From the IMG/VR virus record IMGVR_UViG_3300025313_000036, positions 1-44,106 of that record: 44,106 nucleotides of DNA; one strand, 5' to 3'. The notes below the pieces were generated by a model. That model did no database searches. It worked only from the letters and a program-made list of their open reading frames with translations, and was not told the origin of the DNA. This DNA is from a virus. Positions 14,538-31,347 of this stretch are shown here, piece by piece. Both the position numbers and the translations under genes were made by a program. Every line of letters starts with the position of its first letter. The first letter of the stretch is position 1.

Positions 14538-15214
14538 GCGCAGTTGCCGTCGCAGCGTGAGCCTATCGTCGGCGGCGGGAAATAGCCGAGTGGTTGCCAG
14601 CCCTCCGCGGCGTAGCCCTCGCAATCGACGCAGTGCTCCACGGGTGAAAGCACCCGGCGTTCTTCGGTGTACTTCTCGGATTCCTTCTTGGCCTGGCGCT
14701 CCGCGTCGTGCCAGGATGACACCACGCTATCCGCGATCTGCCTGAGCTGGTTGCGCATTTGAGCCTCCGAGATCTCCCCGTTGGCGACCTGCTGCGCCAG
14801 CAGGTCAATCCGCTTATAGTCCTGCTTGAGGCGCGCTCCCATGCGCCCCCAGTCAGCGTAGGTAACCGCCTCCCTGCCACCGCGCCCGAACACGGTCAGC
14901 ACCTGGCGTCCCTGGCGCAGCTCCAGGGCGACCCGCTCCTGCCAGTCAGGGAGTGAAAGCTGCCCGGAGATAAGGCGCTCGGTCAGCCGGGTCAAGTTCT
15001 TGCCAATCACCTGCTCGTGGTACGTCCGCACCCTGTCCAGGACGGTTCCCATCTTGACTGCTTTGCCTGTCCAGCGTGACACCCACTCGCCGAGCTTGCG
15101 CACGAACTTGTACCCGGACAGGCGCACCAGGAATCGATCCCAGGTCAGCCCTTCCCGACGGGCGACCCTCCTGGCGGCAAGCGCCATTTCGAGAGCGTCT
15201 TGGACTGTCGTCAT
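14516..15214 (-). CDS. Head morphogenesis protein, Mu gpF/SPP1 gp7-like
   Basis: It has 232 residues. The C-terminus carries the cysteine signature of MuF-type minor head proteins: HCVDCEGYAAEGWQPLGYFP followed by CDGNCACSMEF. The rest is helical and Arg-rich (TVQDALEMALAARRVARREG, RMGARLKQDYKRIDLLAQQV). Such proteins sit at the portal vertex and help capsid assembly or DNA ejection. It directly follows the portal gene with a 4-nt overlap, the expected order. It is shorter than most MuF proteins, so part of the N-terminal domain may be reduced. Confidence 0.72.
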   Translation of the reverse strand: MTTVQDALEMALAARRVARREGLTWDRFLVRLSGYKFVRKLGEWVSRWTGKAVKMGTVLDRVRTYHEQVIGKNLTRLTERLISGQLSLPDWQERVALELRQGRQVLTVFGRGGREAVTYADWGRMGARLKQDYKRIDLLAQQVANGEISEAQMRNQLRQIADSVVSSWHDAERQAKKESEKYTEERRVLSPVEHCVDCEGYAAEGWQPLGYFPPPTIGSRCDGNCACSMEFK

Positions 15215-17331
15215 TCCTCGACGACCTCCGCGTCCAGTAATTCCAGCAAGCCGGGGTCGTGCTCCTTTGCCCAGCGACGAAAGCGGTTGAGGGCCGTCTG
15301 GACTTTGCCAGCCGGGTCGTTGGCGATATACTCAACAGTAGTGGGGCGTTCATCCGGGGAGACTGTGAACGGGCGAAAAGCTAGTTCGCGTTTTACTCCA
15401 GATAGCTTGAAAGTTTCGTGCTTGCCTCCCCAAACGAGGTGTAGCGCGCCGAACTCCAGATCAATCCCAGCCTCCACTGGAGGGAGCGATGCGATCTCCG
15501 TGGCATACGCCAGAGTAACATGAGGAATGAAACCGTGAGTACGGGAGTGGGCGATCCCAGCCCAACGCAGGGCGTCCACCAGGCGTTGACGGAATCCGGT
15601 GATGTCCGGGGAGTCTACCAGGGCAACGTAGGCTTTGCCAGTCCCATTCCCGGCCAGATCAAATACAGCGCGCCCGGTCACCCTGCCTGTCACCGGGGGC
15701 ATGCTTGCAGCAAAGGCAGCCAACGCCTTCGCTACCTCAGAACGTTTTACTTTGACATCCGCCTTGGGACCCAAAAACGCCAGGGTCAAATGCAGCTCAT
15801 CCGCGGGGAGCGCCCCGTCGATCCCAACTGCCAGTTTTCCTACCGCCTCGGGTTGAGGATAGAAGGCGATCATCACCCCGCCGTTCTGCTCCAATTCCGC
15901 CAGCCTCAGCCATCCCAGCGTTGTTGACGGCTCTTCCGGCGTCCCTTCATCGTCGAGCGATTCTTCGCCCTCCTCTTCCGGCGCGGGTTCTGTCTCCGGT
16001 ACTGGAGAGGTTTCCTCAAGCTCGATAACGGGGAGCGCCTCGGGGAGGAAGTCCGACTTGCGGCGAACCTCGATCAGGTCGTCATCGCCCAGCGGGGCGA
16101 TAGCGGCGTAAGCCTGGATAAACGCGCCCAGGTTTGCCAAGTCGATCATCTTCTGCACCCGGCGTATGCCCAGCTTGGGGCGGCGCGTCATGTCCGGGAA
16201 AGCATCGCGGTTCACCGGGTAATCGAACAGACGGCGTCCGATCTGAGCGTCAGCCTGGTTGACGTATGATTCCGCCATAGCGTTGAACACAGCCAGGTAG
16301 AACTCGTTGGCGTCCTTGACCGAGGAATATGACCCGTAAGGCGACAGCGTTCCCAGCGCCGCCCACTGCATGGCAATCAGCGCCAGTTTCAGGATGCCGT
16401 AGTAACGAATCGTGTTGAGCAGCGATTCCGCAGCAGCGAACGGGGAGTCAACGACCTCGCCCTTGACGTTGCGCGGCCAGGCGGCGTAGTTGCCCTCCTG
16501 AGCGGTCAGCAGGGCGCGTACCATCTTCTTGATTTCCGTGTGGTCATCGGGAGTAAGCTGGCGATCCGTGGTCACCGAGACGTGACCGGCCGCGTGCTCA
16601 AAGCCGATCCCCATGACCACCTCGAAGTTGTACTTGATGCGCTCCAACCGCCAGAGAGCTTCCATGACCGGCAGACCTTCCGGGGAGTCCGGGTCACCGT
16701 GTACCACATGTAACGACCGTTCGAGTGGGATCGTCACGATCGGATTGGGGATGTCATATTGCGTAAATCCCCTGAGCCTGCCGCTCTTGTCGTCCAAGTC
16801 CCAAGCATAAAACGATTCGTAGTGGCGGAAGCCGAGCCGTCGGTAGCCGATCAGCCCGTCGTCATAGTCGCTGCGCCACGGGTCGTTGCCGGGAGGATGC
16901 CAGTCCTGCTTGCGCAGACCGGGAACCGCTTCCCACCATCCCCAACCGTAGAAGGGGACGCGGGTCATCGCCGATTCGATCCAGCGCCCGATGCCGCCCT
17001 CCAGGTCGTTGAGCGTCTCGTTGGCGAAATCAACCGCCCGCTTGTCATCATCGGTCGGGTCATCTACCTGGGGATCGATGGAAAACTCCACGCCGAGACG
17101 GGAGGCCATCGACGATTGTACCAGCCGGGCGACGGCCACCTCCGGGTCGTTGCGCCAGATGCGATTGAACAAAGGGATGCAGGTCGGGTAGCGCAGCTCT
17201 GAATGGTAAGCCATCCTGATGTACCCGCTCCAGGCTTCAATGCCTGACGTCCCCGTCTCCGCCCAACGTCGCGTCGCTTCTTGTTGGAGATCTGCGTTTT
17301 CTTTGTAAGAGTTTTCTCTGTAATCAGCCAT
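15211..17331 (-). CDS. Portal protein fused to a C-terminal 2H phosphoesterase
   Basis: It has 706 residues. Residues 1-430 look like a phage portal (DUF935/SPP1 type): LFNRIWRNDPEVAVARLVQS, LHVVHGDPDSPEGLPVMEAL, MQWAALGTLSPYGSYSSVKD. An acidic Pro/Glu linker spans about 437-470. Residues 480-680 form a 2H phosphoesterase (LigT/2',5'-RNA ligase-like) with both catalytic motifs, HLTL at His514 and HVTL at His604, 90 residues apart as in the family. 2H enzymes hydrolyse cyclic phosphates in RNA ends or nucleotides. The phage anti-CBASS protein Acb1 belongs to this superfamily, so an anti-defence or RNA-end role is possible. The domain would be present in about 12 copies per portal ring unless cleaved off. 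The frame is continuous through the linker with no hidden stop. Confidence 0.82.
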   Translation of the reverse strand: MADYRENSYKENADLQQEATRRWAETGTSGIEAWSGYIRMAYHSELRYPTCIPLFNRIWRNDPEVAVARLVQSSMASRLGVEFSIDPQVDDPTDDDKRAVDFANETLNDLEGGIGRWIESAMTRVPFYGWGWWEAVPGLRKQDWHPPGNDPWRSDYDDGLIGYRRLGFRHYESFYAWDLDDKSGRLRGFTQYDIPNPIVTIPLERSLHVVHGDPDSPEGLPVMEALWRLERIKYNFEVVMGIGFEHAAGHVSVTTDRQLTPDDHTEIKKMVRALLTAQEGNYAAWPRNVKGEVVDSPFAAAESLLNTIRYYGILKLALIAMQWAALGTLSPYGSYSSVKDANEFYLAVFNAMAESYVNQADAQIGRRLFDYPVNRDAFPDMTRRPKLGIRRVQKMIDLANLGAFIQAYAAIAPLGDDDLIEVRRKSDFLPEALPVIELEETSPVPETEPAPEEEGEESLDDEGTPEEPSTTLGWLRLAELEQNGGVMIAFYPQPEAVGKLAVGIDGALPADELHLTLAFLGPKADVKVKRSEVAKALAAFAASMPPVTGRVTGRAVFDLAGNGTGKAYVALVDSPDITGFRQRLVDALRWAGIAHSRTHGFIPHVTLAYATEIASLPPVEAGIDLEFGALHLVWGGKHETFKLSGVKRELAFRPFTVSPDERPTTVEYIANDPAGKVQTALNRFRRWAKEHDPGLLELLDAEVVEE

Positions 17332-18692: not shown

Positions 18693-19447
18693 TCTCTGCC
18701 GTTCCCGACCATGCCTGTCTGCAGGGCGAGTTGAGCAAAACGCTTCGCCAGGTTTGCCAGCTCAGCTTTATCAGAAACTGTCTGGTGGGCGGCGTCAGTC
18801 ATCGCCCGAAACAGATTCAGCACCTGCTCGGAATGAATCATGGTCTGCATTTCCACACGTCGCCGGCGCTCTGATTCCTCGAGGCGTTGCAGGGTGAGCA
18901 GCCCGACCCGGATTTCGCTCCAGGCAGCGTAATCGGAGACGCCGCGGGCAAGGATTCTGTTAAGGGATGACAGCGAGTCTGCCACCGCCTCGTTATCCTT
19001 ACGTTGCAGAGCTTTAACAAGTTCAGAGTGCGCCGCCTGGGCTTGCTGCCAGTAAAACCCAGCTTCCCCAGTATCGACCCTGGAAAGCAGATCATAGATA
19101 CGTGACTTCCATAGCGCAATTTCGCCGACCAGGGAAAGCAGATCCGGGTCTTTAGCTGCCGCAGTGTAATGATCCACCAGTCGGGAGGGAAGGTACTTCG
19201 AGTACCCGCCATGCTTCCAGGATGGCGCGGCAATTCCCACGGGCGTTGCTCCGCCGTGAGTATAGCAAAAGGTCTTGCCGCGCATGGCGTGCCCGAGACA
19301 CTGGCGATTGTTCCGGGCTGACCATTTTTGACAACGCCGTCGGCCTTCGTACCTGTGCCCCTGGGGGAAATCGGGGACAGGCACGAAGTCCGGTGGTTTC
19401 GGATAAAGTTTGACCCTTTGACTTGTACCCGGGTCATGGGGTTTCAT
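18689..19447 (-). CDS. Terminase small subunit with zinc-binding N-terminus
   Basis: It has 252 residues. The N-terminal half has a Cys/His cluster, RCQKWSARNNRQCLGHAMRG followed by KTFCYTHGG, and then KHGGYSKYLP, a hallmark of one family of phage small terminases. The C-terminal half is helical with charged repeats (LLTLQRLEESERRRRVEMQT). It would recognise pac or cos DNA and pass it to the large subunit. It lies directly upstream of the large terminase and 12 nt after the YhhQ-like gene, so it is in the same transcription unit as the modification genes. Confidence 0.78.
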   Translation of the reverse strand: MKPHDPGTSQRVKLYPKPPDFVPVPDFPQGHRYEGRRRCQKWSARNNRQCLGHAMRGKTFCYTHGGATPVGIAAPSWKHGGYSKYLPSRLVDHYTAAAKDPDLLSLVGEIALWKSRIYDLLSRVDTGEAGFYWQQAQAAHSELVKALQRKDNEAVADSLSSLNRILARGVSDYAAWSEIRVGLLTLQRLEESERRRRVEMQTMIHSEQVLNLFRAMTDAAHQTVSDKAELANLAKRFAQLALQTGMVGNGRE

Positions 19448-19459
19448 TGAGCCATATCG

Positions 19460-20119
19460 TTATAGGCTCGACGGTGCAAGGATTGGCTTGTCTTCTCTCA
19501 CCAAATAGATGCCGGGCATGGAAACGAGTGTGATGATCCCCTTGTATACAATCTGACCCCCGACCAGCGACAGCGCAGTGGCGAAAGGAATTGATTCTGC
19601 GCCGAATAACGGAGGCAAGACCACAAAAGCCAGCGAAGCAAAGACCAGAGAGTCTATCGGTAAACTGATTGCGTTTGATGTCAAGACGCGCGTCCACTGA
19701 GGCGCATTTGAGAAACGCTGTCGGTAGAAGTGATACACTTCGGTGTCGATCAGTTCGCTAATGATCTCAGCCGCGATGGACCCAACCGTGATTGCGGGGA
19801 CAACTGCAAAGACAGCCGACCAGGCTTCACCCAGTTGATAGAATGGAGGCCAGGGCAGTCTTGCCATCCAAGCCAAGTACAGGGCTTGAACGATGTTGAA
19901 TGCGCCCGCGCAAACGATTGCGGCCTGCGACCATGTCTTGCCCAGCCGTTTATGAATCAGATCACGGATAGTAAACGTCAGGGCAAAGATCAATGATCCT
20001 GCTGGCATTGTGATCCCAGTAATGGAGATCAATTTTGTCGCTCCAATGTCTGCCACAGCCTGGCAAAGGATGTAGCTTCCAATCAATGCAACGACGATCC
20101 AGATAGTTTTCTTGTTCAT
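19460..20119 (-). CDS. yhhQ: YhhQ-family 7-deazaguanine precursor transporter
   Basis: It has 219 residues and about six hydrophobic segments. It carries the family signatures VADIGATKLISI, FTIRDLIHKRLGK and IISELIDTEVYHFYR. YhhQ (DUF165/VUT) proteins import queuosine precursors, preQ0 and preQ1, across the inner membrane. Its place in a DpdA-containing locus suggests it supplies the deazaguanine base for DNA modification. The stop lies 12 nt before the small terminase. Transporter genes of this family are found in other phages with deazaguanine DNA. Confidence 0.82.
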   Translation of the reverse strand: MNKKTIWIVVALIGSYILCQAVADIGATKLISITGITMPAGSLIFALTFTIRDLIHKRLGKTWSQAAIVCAGAFNIVQALYLAWMARLPWPPFYQLGEAWSAVFAVVPAITVGSIAAEIISELIDTEVYHFYRQRFSNAPQWTRVLTSNAISLPIDSLVFASLAFVVLPPLFGAESIPFATALSLVGGQIVYKGIITLVSMPGIYLVREDKPILAPSSL

Positions 20120-20121
20120 TT

Positions 20122-20463
20122 TTAACCTCGCTTGATGTTCGAAATGGATGCGCTCACCGGCGCGTGTACGGTTGACTCCGCGTGAACAGTCACGAACAGG
20201 AGTATGTCACCAAGCACCGCTTTGAGTGTATCGAACACCAAGCGGGCCAGGTCTTCGATGGTCATTTGATCCAGAGCAATTGTTTTCAGCCATGATTCAA
20301 ATGCTTCGAATTCGAGAAGTGTTTGTTGAGGATAGAATTCTATTTCAATTTTGCCATAGAAAGCCGCCTTCCCTATTGAACAGATAGTTGAGTAGGATGG
20401 AGAATAAAAGACCTTCGACCCTGGGGGCAGGGAGTTATTGGGGATAGTCAAGCTCAATGTCAT
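20122..20463 (-). CDS. QueF-like T-fold protein
   Basis: I chose ATG 20463 (MTLSLTIPNNSLPPGSKVFY), which has GAGGAAG upstream; a longer frame exists. It has 113 residues, close to the single-domain QueF length. YSTICSIGKAAFYGKIEIEF aligns with the QueF active-site segment, usually (T/S)SLCP.TGQPDFG.I.I.Y. The catalytic Cys28 is kept; the Pro after it is Ser, and the Asp of the PDF motif is missing. QueF reduces preQ0 to preQ1, while related QueF-L forms amidine products. The missing Asp suggests altered chemistry. It overlaps the preceding gene by 29 nt and lies 2 nt before the YhhQ gene. Confidence 0.7.
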   Translation of the reverse strand: MTLSLTIPNNSLPPGSKVFYSPSYSTICSIGKAAFYGKIEIEFYPQQTLLEFEAFESWLKTIALDQMTIEDLARLVFDTLKAVLGDILLFVTVHAESTVHAPVSASISNIKRG

Positions 20464-20887
20464 TTTGATAGTCTTCCTCTCTGGTAAACCAGGCGTTTTG
20501 TTGGGCGAAACCGATTGAATAAAACTCCCCAAAGGATAGCCTGATTTCATCGTTCAGCCTGATCAAGAGGAGATTCTGAAACCAGCCTGGGGGCAGATCG
20601 AGGGTGACCACCAGGCGCGACTTGTTGTCCCGTCTGAAAGGATGCATGCGTGAGTCCAGCTCGTCCGGAGTTGTTTCCACAGAAACGACCAGGTCGTTGT
20701 CCAGCAAAAACTGAGCCAGCTCCCATTTTTCGACAGTCTCTTTGCACAGCCAAACGTGGCCGAGATTGTGTTTCCGACAAACCGCCAAGATCATGTCAAA
20801 TCTACCGCGGGTTGTTTTGCGCACAAAAAGGCTGGGAATACCGGCGAACCTGCCTTCTATCTCAATGCCTGTCCATAATTCAGCCAT
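20435..20887 (-). CDS. Unknown protein of the modification locus (QueE-like N-terminus without Fe-S motif)
   Basis: It encodes 150 residues from ATG 20887 (MAELWTGIEIEGRFAGIPSL). The opening IEIEGRFAGIPSLFVR resembles QueE (7-carboxy-7-deazaguanine synthase), which has QGEG..AG.PSVFVR, and LAQFLLDNDLVVSVETTPDE resembles its VETNGT region. The CxxxCxxC cluster motif of radical-SAM enzymes is absent. It might be a repurposed QueE relic or an unrelated protein. It overlaps the glycosyltransferase gene by 8 nt and the QueF-like gene by 29 nt, showing translational coupling. I do not assign a function. Confidence 0.6.
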   Translation of the reverse strand: MAELWTGIEIEGRFAGIPSLFVRKTTRGRFDMILAVCRKHNLGHVWLCKETVEKWELAQFLLDNDLVVSVETTPDELDSRMHPFRRDNKSRLVVTLDLPPGWFQNLLLIRLNDEIRLSFGEFYSIGFAQQNAWFTREEDYQNDIELDYPQ

Positions 20888-22004
20888 TCCAGATATTGAC
20901 CTCCTGGGGTGATCTTCCGCTCTGCCGAGCAAAGAGGGGGTAGTAATACCTGCCACGATCACAAAGTCGAGCGATCTCAAAATGAGTGCGAGGTGAATCG
21001 ATCACCTGATGAAACAGGCTCAAAGCGGATTCCAGGCTAAAAGCGGAGTATAACCGATCAGAAGGGACGCACTCCGGGAAACTGCGCCAATTCGGATACA
21101 CCACGTCGCAACCGGCAATGCAGCCTTCCAGTAACGTCCAAGAAACGTAGTCCTGGAGCGAGCAATTAAAAATAATCTTCGATTTAGCCAGTTCCTGATA
21201 ATATTCGTCCTTCGTCAGCCCTGCTCTTAGAGCAAATCGCGGCTGCTCAGAAGCCAACTGTTTTAGTTGATCTATCATACCGGGAGCATTGCTTGCAAAC
21301 TGAGTACGGGAAGTGGTCACCATCCAAGACCAGTCGGGGTAAACCTTCAAAAATTGACGGGCGACCTCCAGCATAAATACCGGTTGCTTCTCCCCGTCCA
21401 GCCGAGAGGCAAAGATGACTTGGTTCTGTTTTTTTACGTCTGGAAGGCGACCGGCGACTTCGGCGTAATCTATGGGTAAGCCAATGACATGAATCGGCGC
21501 GCTAAAGCCAGCCTCCCGGAGTTGTTCTTTGTGGATCGAGCTCCCGACAAAAATCCCGGTCATCATCCCGTCATAGCTTATCTCGATAGGGCGCATCCAG
21601 TCACGCATCGGCCAGGTAAAATCGTATATGTCCACCGTCTGCGCCCATAACTGGGCATAGTAGTCCAGGGTGATGTTTTTAATATGCGCAGCGTAAAAGA
21701 TGGCTTCGATCCCTGGGGTCCAAAAATCCTGCAAGACCACCACGTCCCCGTTGTTGACTCTGCCTTCGTCGACCAGGTGGAGAAACCGGGAGACCTGTGA
21801 CAACGAGTAAACCCCCCTGCCAACCGCGTCCAAAACCACGCCGTCCCGGATGTCGTCTGCAAGCACAGCCCCTGGAATCGGGACAAAAGCAAGGTCGCTA
21901 AACTGGGCAAAGGCATTCGGAATCCACCACTGGCTAAGCTGAGTGGTGTAACGCGACTTGATCGGTTCCAAGCCAAAGTAAAAAACTTGCTTCTTAGTCA
22001 GCAT
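20880..22004 (-). CDS. GT-B glycosyltransferase (GT4-like)
   Basis: I chose ATG 22004 (MLTKKQVFYFGLEPIKSRYT); 374 residues fits the family. The C-terminal domain has VIFASRLDGEKQPVFMLEVA (about 196-215), the strand and basic motif that bind the nucleotide-sugar donor. SKIIFNCSLQDYVSWTLLEG and the following Glu are the usual E-rich donor-site helix. It transfers a sugar to an acceptor. Placed between QueD-like and QueF-like genes in a DpdA locus, the likely acceptor is the inserted 7-deazaguanine in DNA or its precursor, though a host glycan cannot be excluded. It overlaps the gene before it by 11 nt. Confidence 0.75.
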   Translation of the reverse strand: MLTKKQVFYFGLEPIKSRYTTQLSQWWIPNAFAQFSDLAFVPIPGAVLADDIRDGVVLDAVGRGVYSLSQVSRFLHLVDEGRVNNGDVVVLQDFWTPGIEAIFYAAHIKNITLDYYAQLWAQTVDIYDFTWPMRDWMRPIEISYDGMMTGIFVGSSIHKEQLREAGFSAPIHVIGLPIDYAEVAGRLPDVKKQNQVIFASRLDGEKQPVFMLEVARQFLKVYPDWSWMVTTSRTQFASNAPGMIDQLKQLASEQPRFALRAGLTKDEYYQELAKSKIIFNCSLQDYVSWTLLEGCIAGCDVVYPNWRSFPECVPSDRLYSAFSLESALSLFHQVIDSPRTHFEIARLCDRGRYYYPLFARQSGRSPQEVNIWNG

Positions 22005-22335
22005 AATAGTAAGCCCCGTTCTCGTTGTCCTCAAAGACACCGACGTAGAAAGCTGCCAGTTGATCGCATAATTCCCCGGCGATCATCTCACAAGACTTGC
22101 CTTGAAAATCATAGCCAAAACCGTTGTGTGGGTACAGACCGTCAAGAGCCGAGCGGATCTCGTTCTGGAGTTCAAAGAACTCGAGTTCCCGATCGCTGCC
22201 TCCCACTCTGAACCCGACTTTGATGTGCAGGTTATGGCGGTGGGTATGGCGCAAGAAAGATAAGTGTTCCGGCGCTCCCAGCCAGTAATGAAATCCAGGG
22301 ACGACCAAACGGGCTTGGATGATGATTCTAGACAT
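21994..22335 (-). CDS. QueD-like (6-pyruvoyltetrahydropterin synthase family) T-fold protein
   Basis: It has 113 residues, near the 118-121 typical of QueD. FHYWLGAPEHLSFLRHTHRH carries His16, His32 and His34, matching the three zinc ligands (AH...HGH). RELEFFELQNEIRSALDGLY matches the DF.ELK....LD region, and SCEMIAGELCDQL matches PTSE.LA. The catalytic Cys before HGH is absent, so it may not make 6-carboxytetrahydropterin. QueD-family proteins start the deazaguanine pathway; paralogues without the Cys do other chemistry. It overlaps the DpdA-like gene by 8 nt. Assignment is by pattern; divergence is strong. Confidence 0.6.
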   Translation of the reverse strand: MSRIIIQARLVVPGFHYWLGAPEHLSFLRHTHRHNLHIKVGFRVGGSDRELEFFELQNEIRSALDGLYPHNGFGYDFQGKSCEMIAGELCDQLAAFYVGVFEDNENGAYYYAD

Positions 22336-23203
22336 TTGTTTGATTGTAAAAATATTGCCAGTTATTGCTGTGCCAATTGTAAAGGCGGTAGCCTAACGCA
22401 GCCCCTGCCATGTAATTATCACGGTCGCCCCGGCGAACCTGGAACCCGTCCGAAACCTGGTTGTGGAGCGTACAGCAGCCGCCTTCCCCCAGCCTGCCAA
22501 AACGAATCAACGCCGAGGACAAGGTCGTATCAATGCTATCGAATAAAGGGTAAGCCAACAAGTAGTAATGCACCCCAAGACCGAGGATGTGAATCCATAC
22601 ATCGGGGTACTTTAACTTGGCAACGTTTGCCAGGTCCAATATCGTGCGGCGTACGATGTCAGCCTCCATTGCCACGTTGCCAAAAGCAACCCGGTCGTAG
22701 TTCTGGAGCAGGTAATGGAGATACGCGCTGTCATCCCCGACCGGGTGGACAACCGGTATCGGGACGAGTCCTCTCGATTCCATCCGTTCGCGGAGCAGAG
22801 TTTTCTGTTCGGTGTTGCCTATGTCCAGCTCAACGTAACCCCACAGCTTGCCCTCGTATTTATGAAGGAACCTGCAATACTCGTCGAAATATTTAGTCAG
22901 TTCGGGGCTGTTTATGTCGATCCTTCTATCTGCCGACAAAATTGAAAAAGTCCCCTCCCGCGCCATCTTCATGTAAATGCCATGCGTCCCGGAGTCGATC
23001 AATATCCGATCTTCCCTGCGAATAGAATGTTCCAAGTACTCGAAATCTTTTGGAGAGTCAAGCTCGTAGTAGGAGTACAAGTAATTGTTCTGCAAACCCA
23101 TGTCCGCCAGGTAGGTAAGGGTCGCGTTAAACACCAGTTTGCCGGGCGTGTCCGCTTTCCCGCCGCCAGTAACTTTCTTATTGCTTGACGATAGCTGATT
23201 CAC
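22328..23203 (-). CDS. dpdA: DpdA-like DNA 7-deazaguanine transglycosylase
   Basis: It has 291 residues, the size of phage DpdA. It belongs to the tRNA-guanine transglycosylase superfamily by these segments: RILIDSGTHGIYM (Asp70, the acid/base position), KYFDEYCRFLHKYEGKLWGY with ELDIGN (Asp127), VPIPVVHPVGDDSAYLHYLL, WIHILGLG and FDSIDTT (Asp225, equivalent to S.DSTSW). DpdA swaps guanine in DNA for a 7-deazaguanine base. The start is GTG at 23203, inside the end of the ParB-like gene, with a 26-nt overlap. A tRNA TGT is unlikely because of its short length, lack of the zinc site and the phage context. Confidence 0.82.
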   Translation of the reverse strand: MNQLSSSNKKVTGGGKADTPGKLVFNATLTYLADMGLQNNYLYSYYELDSPKDFEYLEHSIRREDRILIDSGTHGIYMKMAREGTFSILSADRRIDINSPELTKYFDEYCRFLHKYEGKLWGYVELDIGNTEQKTLLRERMESRGLVPIPVVHPVGDDSAYLHYLLQNYDRVAFGNVAMEADIVRRTILDLANVAKLKYPDVWIHILGLGVHYYLLAYPLFDSIDTTLSSALIRFGRLGEGGCCTLHNQVSDGFQVRRGDRDNYMAGAALGYRLYNWHSNNWQYFYNQTNV

Positions 23204-24095
23204 CGTACACCCTGAGCGCGCTTTGTAAGATCAATCCTGCCAGTTGCAGATCGGGCTGGACTAAAAAAAGATCGGTCGTCGCAGCTATCTTTGTAGTAAA
23301 GATCAAGGGACCTGGAAGGGGAATAAAGAGCATGTCCGGTTTCATCCGAACCGTATAGATCTGCCAGTCTCGAAAAACGTCGAGGATCGCCAAAAAATGC
23401 CGGCCTGCGATCAAGTAAATATCTCCCTGTTCTGCGTCCCCTTCGCTTGTATGTAAGCCAAAATCCTTGAATTTGTCCAGGAGCAGTCCGCGGGCTTCGT
23501 CCGGCGTCAATTCCTGGTTCATCGCCGCGATAATTGCAGCAATGTTGTTCAGGTCCTGCAAATCCACAGATACGGGCATCGTCGATCCAGTCGGGTCTTC
23601 CAGGGCAAGAGTTTCGAGCACCTTGTAATAGCCCTGCGCATCCCAGAGGCGCATGATCTCGGAGATTTCAAAGTCTCCACCAGACATCGTCAGGTTGTTT
23701 GCGTCGATGGCGTAACTGCGTGCAAGAGCCTTGCTGGCTGCGTCCGTGCCAACGACGAGAGGCATAGCCCAATCCCCTGTCTCGATTACCTTCGCTAATC
23801 CCCTGGGGAGAAGCATCCTTTGCTGCTCCATCTTGAAAAGAGCCTCGATCCTGCCATTGCCGGATTTAATCCCACCATCCCCGCCGGAGACGTTAGTCAA
23901 CTGGCCGTCGAACTTCGGCAAGTCCTGGAACCCATGTTTGACGATAGAGGCGATCACCCCCCCAATGTCGTGCAGCTTCGGGTTTTCGTCCCACAGCAGA
24001 CCAATAGCGTCCTTGACCCTGACCCAGATCAATTGAGGGGGATCATTAAATTCCAGTGTCGAGATATCGAGTTGGCGATCCAACGAGGAAGCCAT
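23178..24095 (-). CDS. ParB-like protein, possible DpdB counterpart
   Basis: I chose ATG 24095 (MASSLDRQLDISTLEFNDPP), which has AAGGGAAAC upstream; a longer frame overlaps the promoter. It has 305 residues. DIGGVIASIVKHGFQDLPKF, GIKSGNGRIEAL (about 75-86) and LARSYAIDANNLTMSGGDFE match the ParB/sulfiredoxin-like fold. In bacterial dpd clusters, a ParB-domain protein with ATPase activity, DpdB, works with DpdA to insert preQ0 into DNA; this one is next to DpdA, which supports that role. Part of the C-terminal half resembles the variable domain of phage ParB-type proteins. It is the first gene after a leftward promoter. Confidence 0.7.
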   Translation of the reverse strand: MASSLDRQLDISTLEFNDPPQLIWVRVKDAIGLLWDENPKLHDIGGVIASIVKHGFQDLPKFDGQLTNVSGGDGGIKSGNGRIEALFKMEQQRMLLPRGLAKVIETGDWAMPLVVGTDAASKALARSYAIDANNLTMSGGDFEISEIMRLWDAQGYYKVLETLALEDPTGSTMPVSVDLQDLNNIAAIIAAMNQELTPDEARGLLLDKFKDFGLHTSEGDAEQGDIYLIAGRHFLAILDVFRDWQIYTVRMKPDMLFIPLPGPLIFTTKIAATTDLFLVQPDLQLAGLILQSALRVYGESAIVKQ

Positions 24096-24125
24096 TTGTT
24101 TCCCTTCTCTGATGTGCCTCTCGGG

Positions 24126-24155
24126 ATGATACATCAGAAATGGGCAACCTGTCAA
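24126..24155 (-). promoter_or_regulatory. Promoter of the modification-terminase operon
   Basis: TTGACA (24150-24155), an 18-nt spacer and TATCAT (24126-24131) on the minus strand. Like the other leftward promoter it has the context TTGACAGGTTG. It lies 30-60 nt before the ParB-like gene and back to back with promoter cassette copy 2. Confidence 0.72.
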
Positions 24156-24176
24156 GAACTGCTGTCAGATTGATAC

Positions 24177-24205
24177 TTGACATATTTTCTCAAATGGGAT
24201 ACAAT
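24177..24205 (+). promoter_or_regulatory. Repeated promoter cassette, copy 2
   Basis: TTGACA (24177-24182), N17, TACAAT (24200-24205), with the leader AGGACAACAGATCAGAGAAA. The 10 nt around the -35 and the leader match copies 1 and 3. It drives the small zinc-ribbon gene and the SymE-like gene. Confidence 0.85.
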
Positions 24206-24243
24206 ATTACCAGGACAACAGATCAGAGAAAGGACAGAGACCA

Positions 24244-24371
24244 ATGACTTGCAAAAACGGTTTTTTAGAGGAAGACGGCTACTGCACCCAATGTGGACAG
24301 AACCATTGGAAGAACCAGAAGAAACGCAGCTACGCCCCCCCTGCCCCGTCTGCAAAGGAAAAAACCAATGA
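24244..24371 (+). pseudogene. Small zinc-ribbon protein, frame broken at a C7 run
   Basis: ATG 24244 follows promoter copy 2 and starts MTCKNGFLEEDGYCTQCGQN. The frame then runs through a C7 run (24335-24341), after which the original frame overlaps the SymE-like gene and loses sense. One more C would switch to the frame that ends RPPCPVCKGKNQ, adding a second CxxC and stopping at 24371 in an ATGA overlap with the next gene. That ending is so tidy that a sequencing error, slippage or phase variation at the C-run is likely. The intended protein would be about 43 residues with five Cys. Function unknown. Confidence 0.55.
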
Positions 24372-24556
24372 AAACAAGGAAACTCAAAATCCAACCAGCA
24401 GGCGACCTGTATCGCCAGGCTACCGGCCAGCAAGCGGAGAAGTCCAGCCTGACGCTCTCCGGGAACTGGCTCCGGGAGCTCGGTTTTTAACCAGGCGAAT
24501 ACGTCATCATAGAAACTAAGCCGGGAGAGGTTACCATCAAAAAAATTGCCCCTTGA
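24368..24556 (+). pseudogene. SymE-like toxin-family protein with an in-frame TAA
   Basis: ATG 24368 gives MKTRKLKIQPAGDLYRQATG, then a SymE/MazE-like core LTLSGNWLRELGF. The next codon is TAA (24488-24490), after which the frame reads PGEYVIIETKPGEVTIKKIA up to TGA 24554-24556. The family consensus is L.LSG.WL...GF.PG..V.VE...G.I.I, so the stop replaces one residue, usually a Lys (AAA to TAA), inside a conserved region. The full protein would be about 62 residues. Nonsense mutation, sequencing error or stop-codon readthrough are all possible. SymE proteins are toxins that act on RNA, or DNA-binding relatives. The final TGA overlaps the -35 of promoter copy 3. Confidence 0.6.
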
Positions 24557-24581
24557 CAAATTTTCTCAAATGGGATACAAT
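24553..24581 (+). promoter_or_regulatory. Repeated promoter cassette, copy 3
   Basis: TTGACA (24553-24558), N17, TACAAT (24576-24581), leader AGGACAACAGATCAAACGAG. It sits 376 nt after copy 2 with near-identical sequence, so the interval may have arisen by duplication of a promoter-gene unit. Confidence 0.85.
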
Positions 24582-24621
24582 ATTACCAGGACAACAGATC
24601 AAACGAGAGGAGACAACGACA

Positions 24622-25099
24622 ATGACCAAGAAATGCTACACCCTACCGACCGGAATGAGTTCCAAAGCTGATCAATGATCTCCTGGAGGCCGGACAGACC
24701 TACTCCGCCAGCCTGCTCAACAAGAACCTGTTCGATTGGGCACGCTACCAGATCCGCAATGACCTGGGATGCGATATCTTCGGCGCACTGGTGTACGAGT
24801 TGGAAACAGTCGCTACCCTGCATGGGGAAACAGCCGATCTCCGAAGGGAAATTGAAGTCTTCTCGACCCGTTACGATGAGCGTATAAAACTCTATGAGGA
24901 GCGCATCAAGCAATATGAGGATCGGATCGAAGCACAGAAAAGCAACAACAATTTCATCTCGGAGCAGTTCGAAAAATGGCGCGATATCGCAGAACAGAGA
25001 TACGCCGAGGCCGTTGAAGCACAGCGACAGGTGCAAGACCTGGAGTTGGCAGTCATCCGGCTCAAAGCTAAGCTGTACGACCTGGAGGTGACCAAGTAA
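24622..25099 (+). pseudogene. Coiled-coil protein with an apparent +1 frameshift near its start
   Basis: ATG 24622 has a GAGAGGAG ribosome-binding site and starts MTKKCYTLPTGMSSK, but the frame ends at TGA after 18 codons. Removing one A at 24664-24666 gives MTKKCYTLPTGMSSKLINDL..., which then runs open to TAA 25099 with about 158 residues. The downstream part is a long Glu/Lys/Arg-rich coiled coil (YDERIKLYEERIKQYEDRIE, QQVQDLEL). A single-base insertion, error or programmed +1 shift must be involved. The coding character downstream is strong. No function is recognised. Confidence 0.6.
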
Positions 25100-25933: not shown

Positions 25934-26377
25934 ATGAATACCAGAGGGCGGATTCAAGCAACAATCCTGTTTATAGCAATCTTGATTTTGGCGGCGCAGA
26001 GTACGGTCAGCGCTGCCTGCCCCGGCTGTCCGGTTCCCACAAAAACCGTTCAGCCGAGCACGACCCATACGGAGACGCCGATCCCCAGCCTGACGGCAAC
26101 GGAGACAGTCATCCCCAGTCTAACGGCAACAGCCAGTCCGGACCCAACAGCGACGGAAACGGTCGTTCCCAGCTTGACGGCGACGGCCACAGTAAGCGAT
26201 AATCCAATCGGCGAAACGCCGCAACCAAAAGCAACCGTCACTGCCCTGCCCGAGACCGGGATATTCGATGGTGACATCGGATTCAACGGGCTGGTACTGC
26301 TCGGACTGGCGTTTGCTGGACTGGCGCTGATTGCCAGGGCGATCAGGACAGAGGTAAATCGTGTACGTCGTAACTGA
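25934..26377 (+). CDS. LPETG sortase-anchored surface protein with Thr/Pro-rich stalk
   Basis: It has 147 residues. An N-terminal signal peptide (about 1-27, ILFIAILILAAQSTVSA) is followed by CPGCP and a low-complexity stalk in which TET(V/I)(I/V)PSLTATA-like units repeat three or four times (about 45-90). LPETG lies at 105-109, followed by a membrane segment (118-135) and the positive tail NRVRRN. This is the textbook cell-wall sorting signal, so the protein would be linked to peptidoglycan by a host sortase. The stalk is probably O-glycosylated or extended. Being made during infection, it could block phage adsorption or alter the host surface. The start ATG is 2 nt after the previous stop. 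Confidence 0.8.
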   Translation: MNTRGRIQATILFIAILILAAQSTVSAACPGCPVPTKTVQPSTTHTETPIPSLTATETVIPSLTATASPDPTATETVVPSLTATATVSDNPIGETPQPKATVTALPETGIFDGDIGFNGLVLLGLAFAGLALIARAIRTEVNRVRRN

Positions 26378-27438: not shown

Positions 27439-28645
27439 TAAACTACGTCCCCGCTGAAGCGGGGAGCATTTGGACCTAACCCGAAAGGATTGATCCCAAC
27501 GGTTGGTTTACAACAGCCCTGGCTGCAATATTTACAGCCGCATTGTGGTCCGCTGGCGCAGAGTAACCACAGGACACACAGGAGAAAGTAGATTGATTGG
27601 GTCGATTTGCTTTATCAACACAACCACATACCGGACAAGTCTGGCTTGTGTATTTCGGATCAACGAAGATCACCGGAACACCCGCCAGCTCAGCCTTGTA
27701 AGCAATATAGCTCCGAAGCTGATAGAACGACCAGTTAGCGTGCTTGCTTCTCTGCTTGCGTCTAACAGGAGCCTCACGGATTCCGCTCAAATCTTCAAGA
27801 GCGATAGCCCGTTGAGTGTCTTGCGCTTTTTGAACAAGACGCTTGCTGATCGTGTGGTTGGTATTACTTTGAAACCTGGCCTGCTTGCCGGAGATTTTCT
27901 TGAGTTTATGTTTTGCCGATTTGGTTTGCTTCTTCTGAAGGTTCTTACGGCGATGCTCGAATTTGCGGCGGTTATCATCGACTACCTCGCCGGTGAACTG
28001 CTCACCGTCGCTATCAACTGCCAGATTGACTATTCCAAGATCACAACCGAGAACGTCGTGAACGTCCTGCGGTTCTGGCGTCTCAACGTCACAGGTGGCA
28101 AGCAAGTAGAAATCGCCTTTGATAAGAGCGAGATCGCTTTCTCCACGCTGGCCCTGAAGCATCTCTTTTTGTCTTGCCCCGCAAACAAACGAGACGCGCT
28201 GGCGACCTTCGACCGTCCAGATCGAGACCTCATACAGGTCAACGTACCACTTAAGAATACGACTATCGAAAGCAATCGCTCCGGTCGATTTAAAAGTCCG
28301 TCTCACTTTTCGGTCGATCTTATAGCTGTCAACAACCTTGGAGATGCAGCGGATAACAACCTGAGCGGTGAGGTTGAATTGTTCACGAACGTCGTAGTAA
28401 ACCAATTTGTGCAGCGGTACACGGGAAAATCTTTTATGCTCCCATGCCTGTTCGGAAATATAGTTGCAAGCAGCATTAGCCGTCTCAAGCGTTTGTTTGA
28501 GAGCAGAGAATTGTTCAGGTGTTGGTTGAAGCTTGACCTTTGCGGTGAGTTTCATACCCGTATTATATCACAGTTCGTCAATCTGTTGAAAGTAAAGGAG
28601 GCCGCTTTCCTCTCCCCCATGAATGGGGGAGTGTCCAGCGGAATT
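27439..28645 (-). mobile_element. IS200/IS605-type (IS1341-like) element carrying tnpB only
   Basis: About 1.2 kb with tnpB on the minus strand. The end after tnpB (27449-27464) has a CCCCGCT/AGCGGGG hairpin and the other end (28612-28631) a CTCCCCCAT/ATGGGGGAG hairpin; subterminal hairpins and no inverted repeats are typical of this family. No tnpA is present, so movement would need a transposase in trans. The tip between the start-side hairpin and the flank has AGAAAAA. The exact ends are approximate. The transposon-end RNA after tnpB would contain the guide (omega) RNA. It separates a promoter-leader with its ribosome-binding site from the next gene's ATG. Confidence 0.78.
27476..28555 (-). 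CDS. tnpB: TnpB RNA-guided nuclease
   Basis: It has 359 residues, within the 350-420 range of TnpB. The start is MKLTAKVKLQPTPEQFSALK. The RuvC-like site is complete: GCDLGIVNLAV (Asp172), IALEDLSGIR (Glu254), and ADHNAAVNIA (Asp336). A four-Cys zinc ribbon, TCPVCG...SCVSCG (307, 310, 326, 329), lies between. TnpB uses an RNA from the element's end to cut DNA next to a target-adjacent motif, which retains the element. A TGATATAAT extended -10 lies before the ATG on this strand. Because all catalytic residues are intact, the nuclease may be active. Confidence 0.9.
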   Translation of the reverse strand: MKLTAKVKLQPTPEQFSALKQTLETANAACNYISEQAWEHKRFSRVPLHKLVYYDVREQFNLTAQVVIRCISKVVDSYKIDRKVRRTFKSTGAIAFDSRILKWYVDLYEVSIWTVEGRQRVSFVCGARQKEMLQGQRGESDLALIKGDFYLLATCDVETPEPQDVHDVLGCDLGIVNLAVDSDGEQFTGEVVDDNRRKFEHRRKNLQKKQTKSAKHKLKKISGKQARFQSNTNHTISKRLVQKAQDTQRAIALEDLSGIREAPVRRKQRSKHANWSFYQLRSYIAYKAELAGVPVIFVDPKYTSQTCPVCGCVDKANRPNQSTFSCVSCGYSAPADHNAAVNIAARAVVNQPLGSILSG

Positions 28646-30141: not shown

Positions 30142-30337
30142 CTTCAAAGATTCAAAGTACAGCAAAGCCATTGTGGGGCGGCGCAGGGATAGGGAATATC
30201 CCCTGTGTTCTTCCGCCTCCGGCTGCCCCACTGCACGATACGTGGGCGGCACCAGCCGGTACCTGTGCGAGTGCAAAGACCCAACAAGCTGCCCGGGCGT
30301 CCTGCTGGCAGCCAGCCTGTACGAGGAGGCGGTCTGA
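30122..30337 (+). CDS. Small Cys-rich protein, 71 aa
   Basis: It encodes MKVTSSNFKDSKYSKAIVGR and later LCSSASGCPTARYVGGTSRY with LCECKDPTSCPG, six Cys in all, which suggests a zinc or disulfide fold. It has a 3-nt overlap with the methyltransferase ATG. Confidence 0.55.
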   Translation: MKVTSSNFKDSKYSKAIVGRRRDREYPLCSSASGCPTARYVGGTSRYLCECKDPTSCPGVLLAASLYEEAV

Positions 30338-31347
30338 TGTTAAAACTCACAAAAGCACAAATGAAGGACCGTGACCGGATCGAAGCCTGGCTCAAGGGCG
30401 AGCCGTTCCGGGAGAACAGCCGGGACAAGAACCCCAAAGTCCCCGAGTTGAGCGCAGATCAAATCCTGGAAACCTACGTCCCGGAGTGGATCTCCGATGG
30501 TGCCAAGTATTACACCCCGCGGGAAATGGCCTTGTGGTTAGGCCAGAGCACGGACGTCGCCATTGATCCGCGTTATCCGTTCCACCTACTCGAACCCTGC
30601 GCGGGGATCGGCAACCTGCTCCAGCCGTGGGCTGACCAGACTTCCGCCAGCATCTTCGCTTATGACCTTGACCCGGAAGCCGTCGAAATTGGACGCAAGC
30701 TCTTCCCCTTGGTTGAATGGCATCGTGCGTCCGTGTTGGACGATTTTGAGGCGCACCGGTCGAAATATGACATGGTGGTGATGAACCCGCCGATTGGCAT
30801 CTCCTGGGGGACGGCAGGCGGGATGGCGAACAGCGCAACCGGAGCAGTCAAGTCCGAGCATTTGTTTCTGGAGTTCGCCGTCCATGCCCTGAAACCTGGA
30901 GGCGTCCTTGCCGCTCTGGCTACCTACAATTGGATAGACCGACTCCCCAAGAAACTGCGGGCATGGTTCGATGAGCGGGTCGAGACAGTAGATATTGATG
31001 ACCTGGGAGAAGCGCCGGGCGAATTCCGCTTCACCAAGATCACGGTTCACGGCTGGGTCATCCGGCGCAACGAAAGACATCACCCGCAAATGAAGCAGTT
31101 CCGGGAAACCGAGGTAAAAGCAGCCATTCCCCCGAACGCGGTGCATGTCCCTCATTCAGTCTACGACGCGCTGGCAACCGTCGAGCGAGGCGAATACCTG
31201 GCGTCTGTCAAACGAACCACCGCTATACTTAAAGCCAGTGGCTTCCGGAAGATCGCCAAGTGGGTCGAAAGTCACCCCCTGGAGTATGGCCAGGGGTATT
31301 GGATGGGATTCGTGTCCGATGACAAGCCGCTGCTTTTGCTGAGCTAA
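30337..31347 (+). CDS. DNA N6-adenine methyltransferase
   Basis: I chose ATG 30337 (MLKLTKAQMKDRDRIEAWLK) with GAGGAGGC upstream. It has 336 residues. Motif I is LEPCAGIGN (about 85-93), motif IV is NPPIG (about 150), and FLEFAVHALKPGGVLAALAT follows. NPP(I/F/Y) with a motif I of this type marks an N6-adenine enzyme of the gamma order (Eco57I/type I-like). It has no target-recognition domain of its own, so specificity is probably from its N-terminal region. Its likely use is to protect phage DNA from restriction, a second layer beside the deazaguanine locus. Confidence 0.82.
   Translation: MLKLTKAQMKDRDRIEAWLKGEPFRENSRDKNPKVPELSADQILETYVPEWISDGAKYYTPREMALWLGQSTDVAIDPRYPFHLLEPCAGIGNLLQPWADQTSASIFAYDLDPEAVEIGRKLFPLVEWHRASVLDDFEAHRSKYDMVVMNPPIGISWGTAGGMANSATGAVKSEHLFLEFAVHALKPGGVLAALATYNWIDRLPKKLRAWFDERVETVDIDDLGEAPGEFRFTKITVHGWVIRRNERHHPQMKQFRETEVKAAIPPNAVHVPHSVYDALATVERGEYLASVKRTTAILKASGFRKIAKWVESHPLEYGQGYWMGFVSDDKPLLLLS

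Follow-up and report, generated by a model that had tools for sequence, protein, structure and literature searches.

We find that seven neighbouring genes of the viral record IMGVR_UViG_3300025313_000036 probably constitute a salvage-type phage system of 7-deazaguanine DNA modification with an added glycosylation step, a reading of sequences and a predicted structure to which we assign a probability of roughly 0.68. Its product would most likely be a glycosylated 7-deazaguanine in phage DNA, of which we infer the sugar, the attachment atom and the order of steps. The eight phage 7-deazaguanine bases reportedly described by Cui in 2023 are all said to be small, and if our reading is true, a sugar on 7-deazaguanine would mean that glycosylation of phage DNA extends beyond the hydroxymethylpyrimidines to a second class of bases. 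It would also give a role to three 'hypothetical' genes (S1, U and GT, below), and put new base-modifying enzymes on offer. In the accessible part of the literature, which excludes Cui 2023, a 2024 MMBR review and Iyer 2013, we found no glycosyltransferase tied to phage 7-deazaguanine.

The seven ORFs all lie on the minus strand (24095-19460 of the 44,106-nt stretch analysed, hereafter the window) and encode, in order, a ParB-like protein, a DpdA, a QueD-like T-fold protein (S1), a glycosyltransferase (GT), a GT-linked protein (U), a QueF-like protein and a YhhQ-type transporter. Their likely starts are 24095, 23203, 22335, 22004, 20887, 20463 and 20119, respectively, those of GT, U and the QueF-like gene having been picked by comparison with homologs. 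With these starts, five adjacent gene pairs overlap by 8-29 bases and the sixth pair is 2 bases apart, and the clustering of the seven genes exceeds chance. Directly upstream, a promoter-like site (TTGACA-18-TATCAT, 24126-24155, minus strand) agrees with the consensus at 11 of 12 positions; since a scan of 19300-24700 returned 9 such sites against 4.0 expected, it counts as no more than a pattern match. Two other contigs (41.5 kb and 63 kb) carry a near-identical region (99.948% over 17,158 bases compared), and the operon genes there differ by 0 to 4 codons each, too few for measuring selection. The original prediction had described this leftward string, with a ParB-like first gene, a DpdA-like transglycosylase, a GT-B glycosyltransferase and a YhhQ-like transporter, and without FolE, QueE or QueC, and in all these respects our analysis agrees with it. 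Searches for FolE in the window and both near-copies (41.5 kb and 63 kb), and for QueC in the window and the 63 kb near-copy, found nothing, and purpose-built profiles detected neither QueD nor QueE among the window ORFs.

The ParB-like protein and U had no firm match in Pfam, PHROGs or NCBIfam, and S1 and the QueF-like protein had weak or unnamed ones only; family profiles were therefore built first. By its matches, DpdA (22328-23203, 291 aa) is a member of the DNA-guanine transglycosylase family, and so lies within the TGT superfamily: it matches phrog_887 'queuine tRNA-ribosyltransferase' (2.1e-19), and its family profile matches PDB 7ui4 'DNA-guanine transglycosylase' (2.8e-4). Residues D70 and D225, which we take to be the catalytic Asp pair, are invariant in 22 of 22 alignment rows, D225 being further supported by an SxDST alignment to 7ui4. 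A tblastn search of 50,697 phage records with the window DpdA gave no match at 1e-5, and its close relatives in IMG/VR are only the two near-copies of the window region, so the wider family was reached via neighbouring genes. The ParB-like protein (23178-24095, 305 aa), a presumed partner of DpdA, has no match of note of its own in the three collections; its homolog L099 matches ParB_N (1.6e-7) and PHROG ParB (7.7e-45), and the GxGR residues are invariant in 5 alignment rows.

GT (20880-22004, 374 aa) matches a PHROG glycosyltransferase (4.4e-5), and its AF2 model (pLDDT 94.6), with GT4-type folds as its nearest, identifies it as a real GT-B glycosyltransferase. The closest enzymes act on small molecules, a predicted resemblance in fold that says nothing on the acceptor: BshA (Foldseek 1.3e-12; Z 27.6, rmsd 2.9, 323 residues aligned, 12% identity) and tetrahydrobiopterin glucosyltransferase (Z 23.7 over 317 residues). 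Across 52 rows Arg201 is kept in 51, Lys206 in 50 and Glu293 in 52, while position 285 is acidic in all (Asp in 29, Glu in 23; Asp285 in the window); we take Arg201/Lys206 to be the donor pair, and 285 and 293 the EX7E-type acidic pair. Thus GT is like BshA, MshA and tetrahydrobiopterin glucosyltransferase in near-full-length fold and donor-site residues, but differs from them in sitting in a DNA-modification operon. T4 glucosyltransferases and QTMAN are absent among the 50 structure matches listed for GT, which excludes nothing.

The original prediction placed GT outside the known deazaguanine pathways. GT is not special to this phage: among the matches listed, a GT relative is encoded by at least 528 of the 598 IMG/VR stretches that fitted the pattern, and if our reading is true the class spans hundreds of environmental phage contigs and named isolates such as PA5oct. 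In the 89 best-scoring GT-anchored loci (14 and 75 from two listings, the best 80 of the pattern-matched stretches being taken for loci), a DpdA-type gene is present in 85 and lies within 250 bases of GT on the same strand in 81, and the detected GT, DpdA, S1 and U genes share one strand in all 89, although these counts overstate independence since the loci are related by descent. In the 15 GT loci with at least 7.5 kb on both sides, DpdA and QueE each occur in 15, QueD in 14, U in 13, and S1 and FolE in 12 each. Among 78 S1-anchored loci (from the best 80 of at least 591, duplicates out), a set in which GT is favoured because the S1 query alignment had rows from GT loci exclusively, GT is present in 40. 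DpdA/DpdAx accompanies 39 of these 40 versus 11 of the 38 loci without GT, DpdA3 occurs in 0/40 versus 23/38, and U in 12/40 versus 0/38; overall, none of the 30 loci with DpdA3 has GT. Five loci (L005, L006, L021-L023) were excluded as copies of the window, two of which (L005, L006) are still in the sets of 94 and 192; L100 and L109, second views of contigs already counted, were excluded from the S1 counts only, and short contigs were kept in the 'any length' counts. GT also adjoins QueE in five named phages (PA5oct, X1, ACP17, BUCT-ZZ01 and Phosso), in four of which DpdA was detected, the 16.9 kb examined of Phosso showing none. Against 14 whole records the GT profile gave 5 strong matches, each beside QueE and S1; 4 of these 5 records had originally been found through GT, and PA5oct independently through S1. 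The company that GT keeps with deazaguanine genes in so many viruses suggests a DNA base that awaits measurement.

The transporter (19460-20119, 219 aa) is of the YhhQ type (Vut_1 1.4e-29; TIGR00697 'queuosine precursor transporter' 3.8e-26), and so provides the 7-deazaguanine source that DpdA-type systems have either as synthesis genes or as a transporter. The QueF-like T-fold protein (20122-20463, 113 aa) stays under the Pfam QueF cut-off (0.0068, 17 of 27.3 bits; 17 of 86.9 for TIGR03139), its homolog L182 reaching 26 of 27.3 bits. Its three-member profile is closest to archaeosine synthase QueF-L (PDB 5jyx, 4.6e-5), followed by FolE (1.4e-4) and QueF (0.17). The cysteine of QueF-L is kept, but the Asp that follows it in QueF and QueF-L, presumably catalytic, is not conserved in the QueF-like rows or the 5jyx alignment, and the lysines of the NADPH motif, which we take to be that of the nitrile reductase, are missing from all 3 members. 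Conversion of an imported precursor into the FolE-QueD-QueE intermediate therefore seems likelier, from sequence, than the plain preQ0/preQ1 salvage first proposed. Locus L105 keeps the gene order of the window, with ParB-DpdA-S1-GT-U followed by QueD-QueE-FolE in place of QueF-like-YhhQ; import plus the QueF-like protein thus apparently substitutes for precursor synthesis in the window phage, and the swap makes the function of this odd QueF family directly testable. QueC was over its cut-off in 0 of 33 records (hand-picked, 31 with GT, many of them fragments), which suggests that the GT-type branch runs through 7-carboxy-7-deazaguanine. YhhQ and the QueF-like gene also occur in other settings: Faecalibacterium phage Roos has ParB, S1, DpdA and YhhQ without the QueF-like gene or GT, so import without a QueF-like enzyme occurs; L182 has the QueF-like/YhhQ pair with DpdA and a methyltransferase and neither S1 nor GT, which shows that these two genes can go together without glycosylation; and in L156 and L174 YhhQ adjoins FolE without a QueF-like gene. 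Two matches of the QueF-like profile at E = 0.005 are FolE genes, and were left out of the counts.

S1 (21994-22335, 113 aa), originally called QueD-like, is indeed a T-fold relative of QueD, but its sequences place it in a separate family (phrog_17812) that accompanies a real QueD in many phages. It has no Pfam match; its family profile matches PDB 2dj6 (5.1e-4), an entry named hypothetical protein which we take to be a QueD homolog, and phage QueD by hhalign (probability 83%, E 8.9e-6). His16, His32 and His34 are invariant in 15 rows, and the window S1 is without a Cys before its HRH motif, presumably the position of the QueD catalytic Cys (a Cys lies near there in 5 of the 15 rows and in none of the other 10). 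Phage QueD falls into two main types (HGH and HGY), both of which occur with and without S1, and the idea that QueD and S1 form a composite active site was therefore rejected. S1 may possibly be DpdL, the CDG decarboxylase; Cui 2023 is said to use that name for a decarboxylase and to describe the nucleosides dDG and dCDG. If S1 is DpdL, the base would be without an obvious hydroxyl or amine on C7, a point against our reading. More speculatively, should S1 take off the carboxylate, a C-linked sugar at C7 is conceivable.

U (20435-20887, 150 aa), the 'unknown' gene of the original prediction, belongs to a family found only with GT (94 of 94 loci, 76 of them from sets gathered through GT) and faintly resembling QueE. 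In a structure comparison QueE fills the top four VIA rows (Z 6.8-7.2, where Z under 8 can be chance), and hhalign against QueE gives 6.1e-4 over only 26 columns with a probability of 28% (controls 0.42 and 0.73); Foldseek returned no match at E <= 0.001, and a PDB sequence search nothing below 0.035. The iron-sulfur cysteines of QueE are lacking: 0 of 94 U proteins have a CxxxC followed 2-8 residues later by a third Cys, and a CxxxC...C pattern is present in 83 of 88 QueE proteins. U was not detected in 28 of the 40 GT loci of the S1-anchored set, and is therefore dispensable there or too diverged for detection.

Together these genes suggest a pathway. YhhQ would import a 7-deazaguanine precursor, perhaps preQ0, which the QueF-L-like protein and then S1 would turn into the base made elsewhere by FolE, QueD, QueE and S1, putatively a 7-carboxy-7-deazaguanine derivative. 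DpdA, assigned to its family by direct matches and to this act by prediction, would replace guanines of the phage DNA with that base, aided by the ParB-like protein, and GT would move a sugar from a nucleotide-sugar onto the new base, either within DNA or shortly before it is inserted; U may hold or present the base. The resulting bulky base may shield phage DNA from restriction enzymes. More speculatively, and doubtful as a whole, a large branch of phage DNA may carry a glycosylated, CDG-derived 7-deazaguanine in place of guanine, with S1 (from QueD) and U (from a cluster-less QueE) as helpers, and with import and a QueF-L-derived preQ0 nitrilase (nitrile to carboxylate, reversing QueC) replacing FolE-QueD-QueE in the window phage.

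Several alternative hypotheses may explain the same gene set. GT could glycosylate the free base or nucleoside, with DpdA then inserting the finished base, much as eukaryotic TGT inserts ready-made queuine; the nearest folds of GT are GT4 enzymes with small acceptors, and S1 and faintly U resemble enzymes handling free pterins or deazaguanines. This is a variant of our preferred explanation, with a product that is still glycosylated, and we hold it to be a real, if minority, possibility. A sugar placed by GT on the aminomethyl group of preQ1, formed by the QueF-like protein as a reductase and inserted by DpdA, would have in its amine a plausible acceptor. According to the accessible parts of two reports, Vibrio phage 6E351A, which has QueF, contains dPreQ1 by mass spectrometry (PMC12028318), and Streptococcus phage Dp-1, one of whose proteins HHpred placed with QueF-L, had dPreQ1 and no dG+ (PMC6884629), so that nearness to QueF-L is compatible with a reductase. 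However, the sub-cut-off QueF score, the closer relationship of the profile to QueF-L and FolE, and the missing lysines make such a route improbable, and the QueF-like gene occurs in 0 of the 89 best-scoring GT-anchored loci and is therefore not the usual partner of GT.

It is also unlikely that the operon yields a plain 7-deazaguanine (dPreQ1, dG+, dCDG or dDG), with GT merely co-expressed and serving, for example, the host surface. The phage systems described in the accessible text of PMC6884629 are without sugar, and a jumbo-phage survey (PMC7824862), as far as accessible, relates the glycosyltransferase clusters of cyanophages to surface polysaccharides, but the tight spacing of DpdA and GT, the sharp split of GT by DpdA type and the restriction of U to GT loci argue against a bystander role. 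That the genes are functionless relics, as the missing FolE, QueD, QueE and QueC might suggest, is extremely improbable given seven open and coupled frames, the retention of conserved GT and DpdA residues, and the little-changed operon in two further contigs.

Compared with known systems, the glycosylating operon that we favour combines familiar and unfamiliar parts. The DpdA-based systems of phages 9g, CAjan, Dp-1 and nt-1 share its DpdA-family transglycosylase and, in some, a QueF-type gene, and their dG+ group encodes QueC, in contrast to the records above; in the accessible text of that source, 'glycosyltransferase' and words beginning with 'glycosyl' have 0 occurrences (PMC6884629). YhhQ homologs are likewise found in some of these systems, for example in the CAjan cluster according to the part accessible of PMC10002423. 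DpdA3-type systems, that of Cellulophaga phage phiST among them, have FolE, QueD, QueE and S1 as GT-type phages do, and loci L113/L183 even carry the YhhQ and QueF-like pair, but their DpdA is of another type and they lack GT. The glucosyltransferases that T4 uses on hydroxymethylcytosine follow the same principle, a sugar on a modified base as protection from host enzymes, on the accessible text of PMC13216743, whereas the base differs and in the window operon would be swapped in by a DpdA-type enzyme.

Possible sugar-donor genes accompany GT in some loci. A gene resembling cytidylyltransferases (PF01467 3.5e-16 for the one member scanned) was seen in 23 loci and an NAD-dependent epimerase (likewise with one member scanned) in 6, GT being present in every case. 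The former is found in only 17 of the 89 best-scoring GT-anchored and 6 of the 78 S1-anchored loci, which weighs against our reading. No cytidylyltransferase-like gene adjoins the window operon, and the sugar donor would therefore be host-supplied. In Xanthomonas phage X1 the neighbour of GT (L002 6747-7529) carries a motif suggestive of a PIG-L sugar deacetylase, an identity that was rejected because the protein has no Pfam match at 0.01 and a single PDB match at E 0.23. Phage X1 additionally carries a second, weak match to the GT profile (3.6e-4) outside the cassette.

In the window, a virus record of 44,106 bases, the seven genes foreseen in the original prediction are present on the minus strand, from 24095 down to 19460, in the order ParB-like protein, DpdA, S1 (a QueD-like T-fold protein), GT (the GT-B glycosyltransferase), U (a protein linked to GT), QueF-like protein and YhhQ. 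With starts picked via homologs, five adjacent pairs overlap and one is separated by a 2-base gap. A promoter-like site, recognised by pattern match only, lies at 24155-24126 ahead of the ATG at 24095; a small protein (19447-18689) and then the terminase (18692-17337) follow downstream, and a DnaB-type helicase is encoded on the plus strand (33137-34492). This region recurs in two further IMG/VR contigs (99.948% over 17,158 bases), where each of the seven operon genes differs from the window's copy by 0 to 4 codons.

Sequence and model comparisons identify the transporter, DpdA and the GT-B enzyme by family, in agreement with what had been predicted for them. YhhQ matches Vut_1 (1.4e-29) and TIGR00697 (3.8e-26), both above cut-off. 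DpdA matches the PHROG ‘queuine tRNA-ribosyltransferase’ (2.1e-19), and a profile of 22 relatives reaches the DNA-guanine transglycosylase 7ui4 in the PDB at 2.8e-4, in an alignment that spans the SxDST motif, with D70 and D225 invariant (22 rows). The window's ParB-like protein has no notable match of its own in Pfam, PHROGs or NCBIfam; a homolog adjoining DpdA and S1 in locus L099 matches ParB_N (1.6e-7) and the PHROG ParB (7.7e-45). The nearest folds to the AlphaFold model of GT (mean pLDDT 94.6), by Foldseek and VIA-align, are BshA (Foldseek E 1.3e-12; Z 27.6, rmsd 2.9, 323 residues aligned), MshA, sucrose-phosphate synthase and tetrahydrobiopterin glucosyltransferase, all GT4-type, and the donor-site residues are conserved in 52 diverse members. 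GT is likely a functional glycosyltransferase, whose acceptor we infer from its gene company.

Among the 89 best-scoring IMG/VR loci gathered with GT as query, 85 carry a DpdA-type gene, 81 have DpdA within 250 bases of GT, and in all 89 whichever of GT, DpdA, S1 and U were detected lie on a single strand. Fifteen GT loci with at least 7.5 kb on each side contain DpdA (15), QueE (15), QueD (14), U (13), S1 (12) and FolE (12), and none contains QueF-like or YhhQ. When S1 was the query (78 loci, two duplicates having been taken out of the best 80 of at least 591), GT was present in 40; DpdA or DpdAx occurred in 39 of these 40 and DpdA3 in none, whereas the 38 loci without GT had DpdA or DpdAx in 11 and DpdA3 in 23 (Fisher p = 4.4e-11 and 4.5e-10 respectively, both overstated as the loci share descent). 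GT is absent from every DpdA3-like locus (30 by profile). Both families are large, with relatives of GT in at least 528 of 598 pattern-matched stretches and of S1 in at least 591 of 600. Named phages with GT are Pseudomonas phage PA5oct (found through S1, with DpdAx-GT-S1 and QueE) and, found through GT, Xanthomonas phage X1, Acidovorax phage ACP17, Synechococcus phage BUCT-ZZ01 and Sinorhizobium phage Phosso; all five have QueE and S1 nearby, four FolE and four DpdA. The GT profile found no match in nine other records searched, seven of them named S1 phages. Cellulophaga phage phiST carries S1 but not GT. Separately, DpdA3-like genes accompany S1, in some cases with a phosphoribosyltransferase, in L111, L113 and similar loci (22 loci, 30 by profile), and GT cassette genes also turn up in metagenome-assembled contigs that binning assigned to Nitrosopelagicus, Phycisphaerae, Rickettsiales, Rhodobacteraceae and Verrucomicrobia (L184-L189), perhaps phage DNA binned along with its host.

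Potential sources of a sugar donor lie near some cassettes. A cytidylyltransferase-like gene (PF01467, 3.5e-16, one member scanned) is found in 23 loci, 17 of them from the GT-anchored set, and in 14 of the 23 it lies between U and S1; an NAD-dependent epimerase (one member scanned) is found in six, and GT is present in all loci of both kinds. Neither gene stands beside the window operon. Some loci carry a second GT (L001 at 5007-6350, Glyco_trans_1_4 3.4e-5, 24.6 of 27 bits; L015; L016). These genes fit with sugar transfer, and suggest that donors differ from phage to phage. A methyltransferase of about 200 aa (PF13578, 8.8e-14, one member scanned) directly precedes GT in seven loci, two being one contig (L089, L092-L095, and L019, the contig of L109), possibly indicating a methylated sugar.

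S1 matches phrog_17812 (function not assigned) at 1.3e-14, and its family profile reaches PDB 2dj6, which we take to be a QueD homolog, at 5.1e-4 and phage QueD with an alignment probability of 83% (E 8.9e-6). All 15 rows of the family share His16, His32, His34 and a Ser-Cys-Glu motif, and S1 probably has a metal site. Because of these alignments and histidines, and because the QueD cysteine is missing from the window protein, S1 is on sequence grounds a T-fold protein distinct from QueD, so that the predicted QueD likeness survives as T-fold relatedness but not as QueD itself; the two occur together in many phages. Many phage QueD proteins (e.g. L008 5733-6218) have HGY replacing the usual HGH zinc motif.

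Of 192 loci that contain at least one cassette gene, 94 have U, and GT is present in each of them, although 76 of the 94 were gathered through GT; in the S1-anchored set it is found in 12 of 40 loci with GT and in none of 38 without. Its model is fair (pLDDT 75, pTM 0.74), and Foldseek returned no match at E <= 0.001. In VIA-align the top four matches all belong to QueE, of three species (Z 6.8-7.2 over 123-133 residues; Z under 8 can be chance), and against phage QueE profiles U gives one match, over an EGxxxGIPxxFVR stretch (E 6.1e-4, probability 28%, 26 columns; controls QueD 0.42, DpdA 0.73). The iron-sulfur cysteine triplet is found in none of the 94 proteins. A lead from these comparisons is that U may be related to QueE, having given up the radical SAM chemistry but retained a base-binding site.

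FolE is absent from the window, as had been anticipated, and from its copies. QueC was above cut-off in none of 33 records (31 with GT; many are fragments), with one weak match in X1 and 11 of 14 control genomes above cut-off. Given this result for QueC, GT-cassette phages seem to end at the QueE product 7-carboxy-7-deazaguanine, unless host QueC contributes. The order ParB-DpdA-S1-GT-U-QueD-QueE-FolE in L105 is swapped in the window for ParB-DpdA-S1-GT-U-QueF-like-YhhQ, and L113/L183, from a DpdA3-type phage, have YhhQ-QueF-like-S1 with no FolE within the short contigs. From these arrangements, QueF-like and YhhQ seem to supply S1 with what QueE produces in other phages.

The QueF-like protein is a T-fold protein whose profile is closest to QueF-L (4.6e-5) and FolE (1.4e-4), QueF following at 0.17. 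A cysteine, Glu70 and His100 are kept in the family (window, L182, L113), but the reductase motif of QueF is not; one guess that would fit is an attack of this cysteine on the preQ0 nitrile, with hydrolysis as the outcome. Against this, Faecalibacterium phage Roos has YhhQ, S1, DpdA and ParB without QueF-like, L182 carries the QueF-like/YhhQ pair without S1, and preQ1 was the product of a phage protein that HHpred had grouped with QueF-L (PMC6884629). L182 (5279-8911, ParB-DpdA-class I methyltransferase-QueF-like-YhhQ, no GT) is perhaps a second salvage system, for a methylated 7-deazaguanine. The Roos genes, from the gut (L194 8168-10899, ParB-S1-DpdA-YhhQ, at the record end), are each annotated hypothetical.

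Under the proposed pathway of salvage and glycosylation, YhhQ would import preQ0, the QueF-like protein and S1 would convert it, and the product base would be inserted in place of guanine; GT would glycosylate the base, within DNA or earlier, and U may serve as its holder. The modified base would shield DNA from restriction, a protection reported for other 7-deazaguanines (PMC6884629). A jumbo-phage survey of 2021 (PMC7824862) mentions that PA5oct has a deazaguanine system and, in the portion covered, deals with glycosyltransferases in the context of surface sugars. No glycosyltransferase is tied to phage 7-deazaguanine in the literature covered. We file the operon as a variant within DpdA systems, and not as a separate kind of system.

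Elsewhere in the window, a 706-aa protein in the portal position after the terminase (15211-17331, minus strand) has a C-terminal 2'-5' RNA ligase/LigT phosphoesterase domain (PF13563, 7.3e-11), an unusual fusion that might act in RNA repair or counter-defence. A small Thr/Ser-rich protein (25934-26377, plus strand; no Pfam match) has an LPETG stretch, which we take to be a sortase-type motif, and then a hydrophobic tail, and may hint at a sortase-bearing host. An IS605 OrfB/TnpB gene lies at 27476-28555 (minus strand; Cas12f1-like TNB 7.9e-25, PHROG transposase 1.1e-51), and a late-region ORF (6499-7194, minus strand) looks sulfotransferase-like by eye, with no Pfam match. Finally, a methyltransferase-like gene (30205-31347, plus strand; Eco57I, N6_Mtase and others, each below cut-off) possibly provides a second DNA modification.
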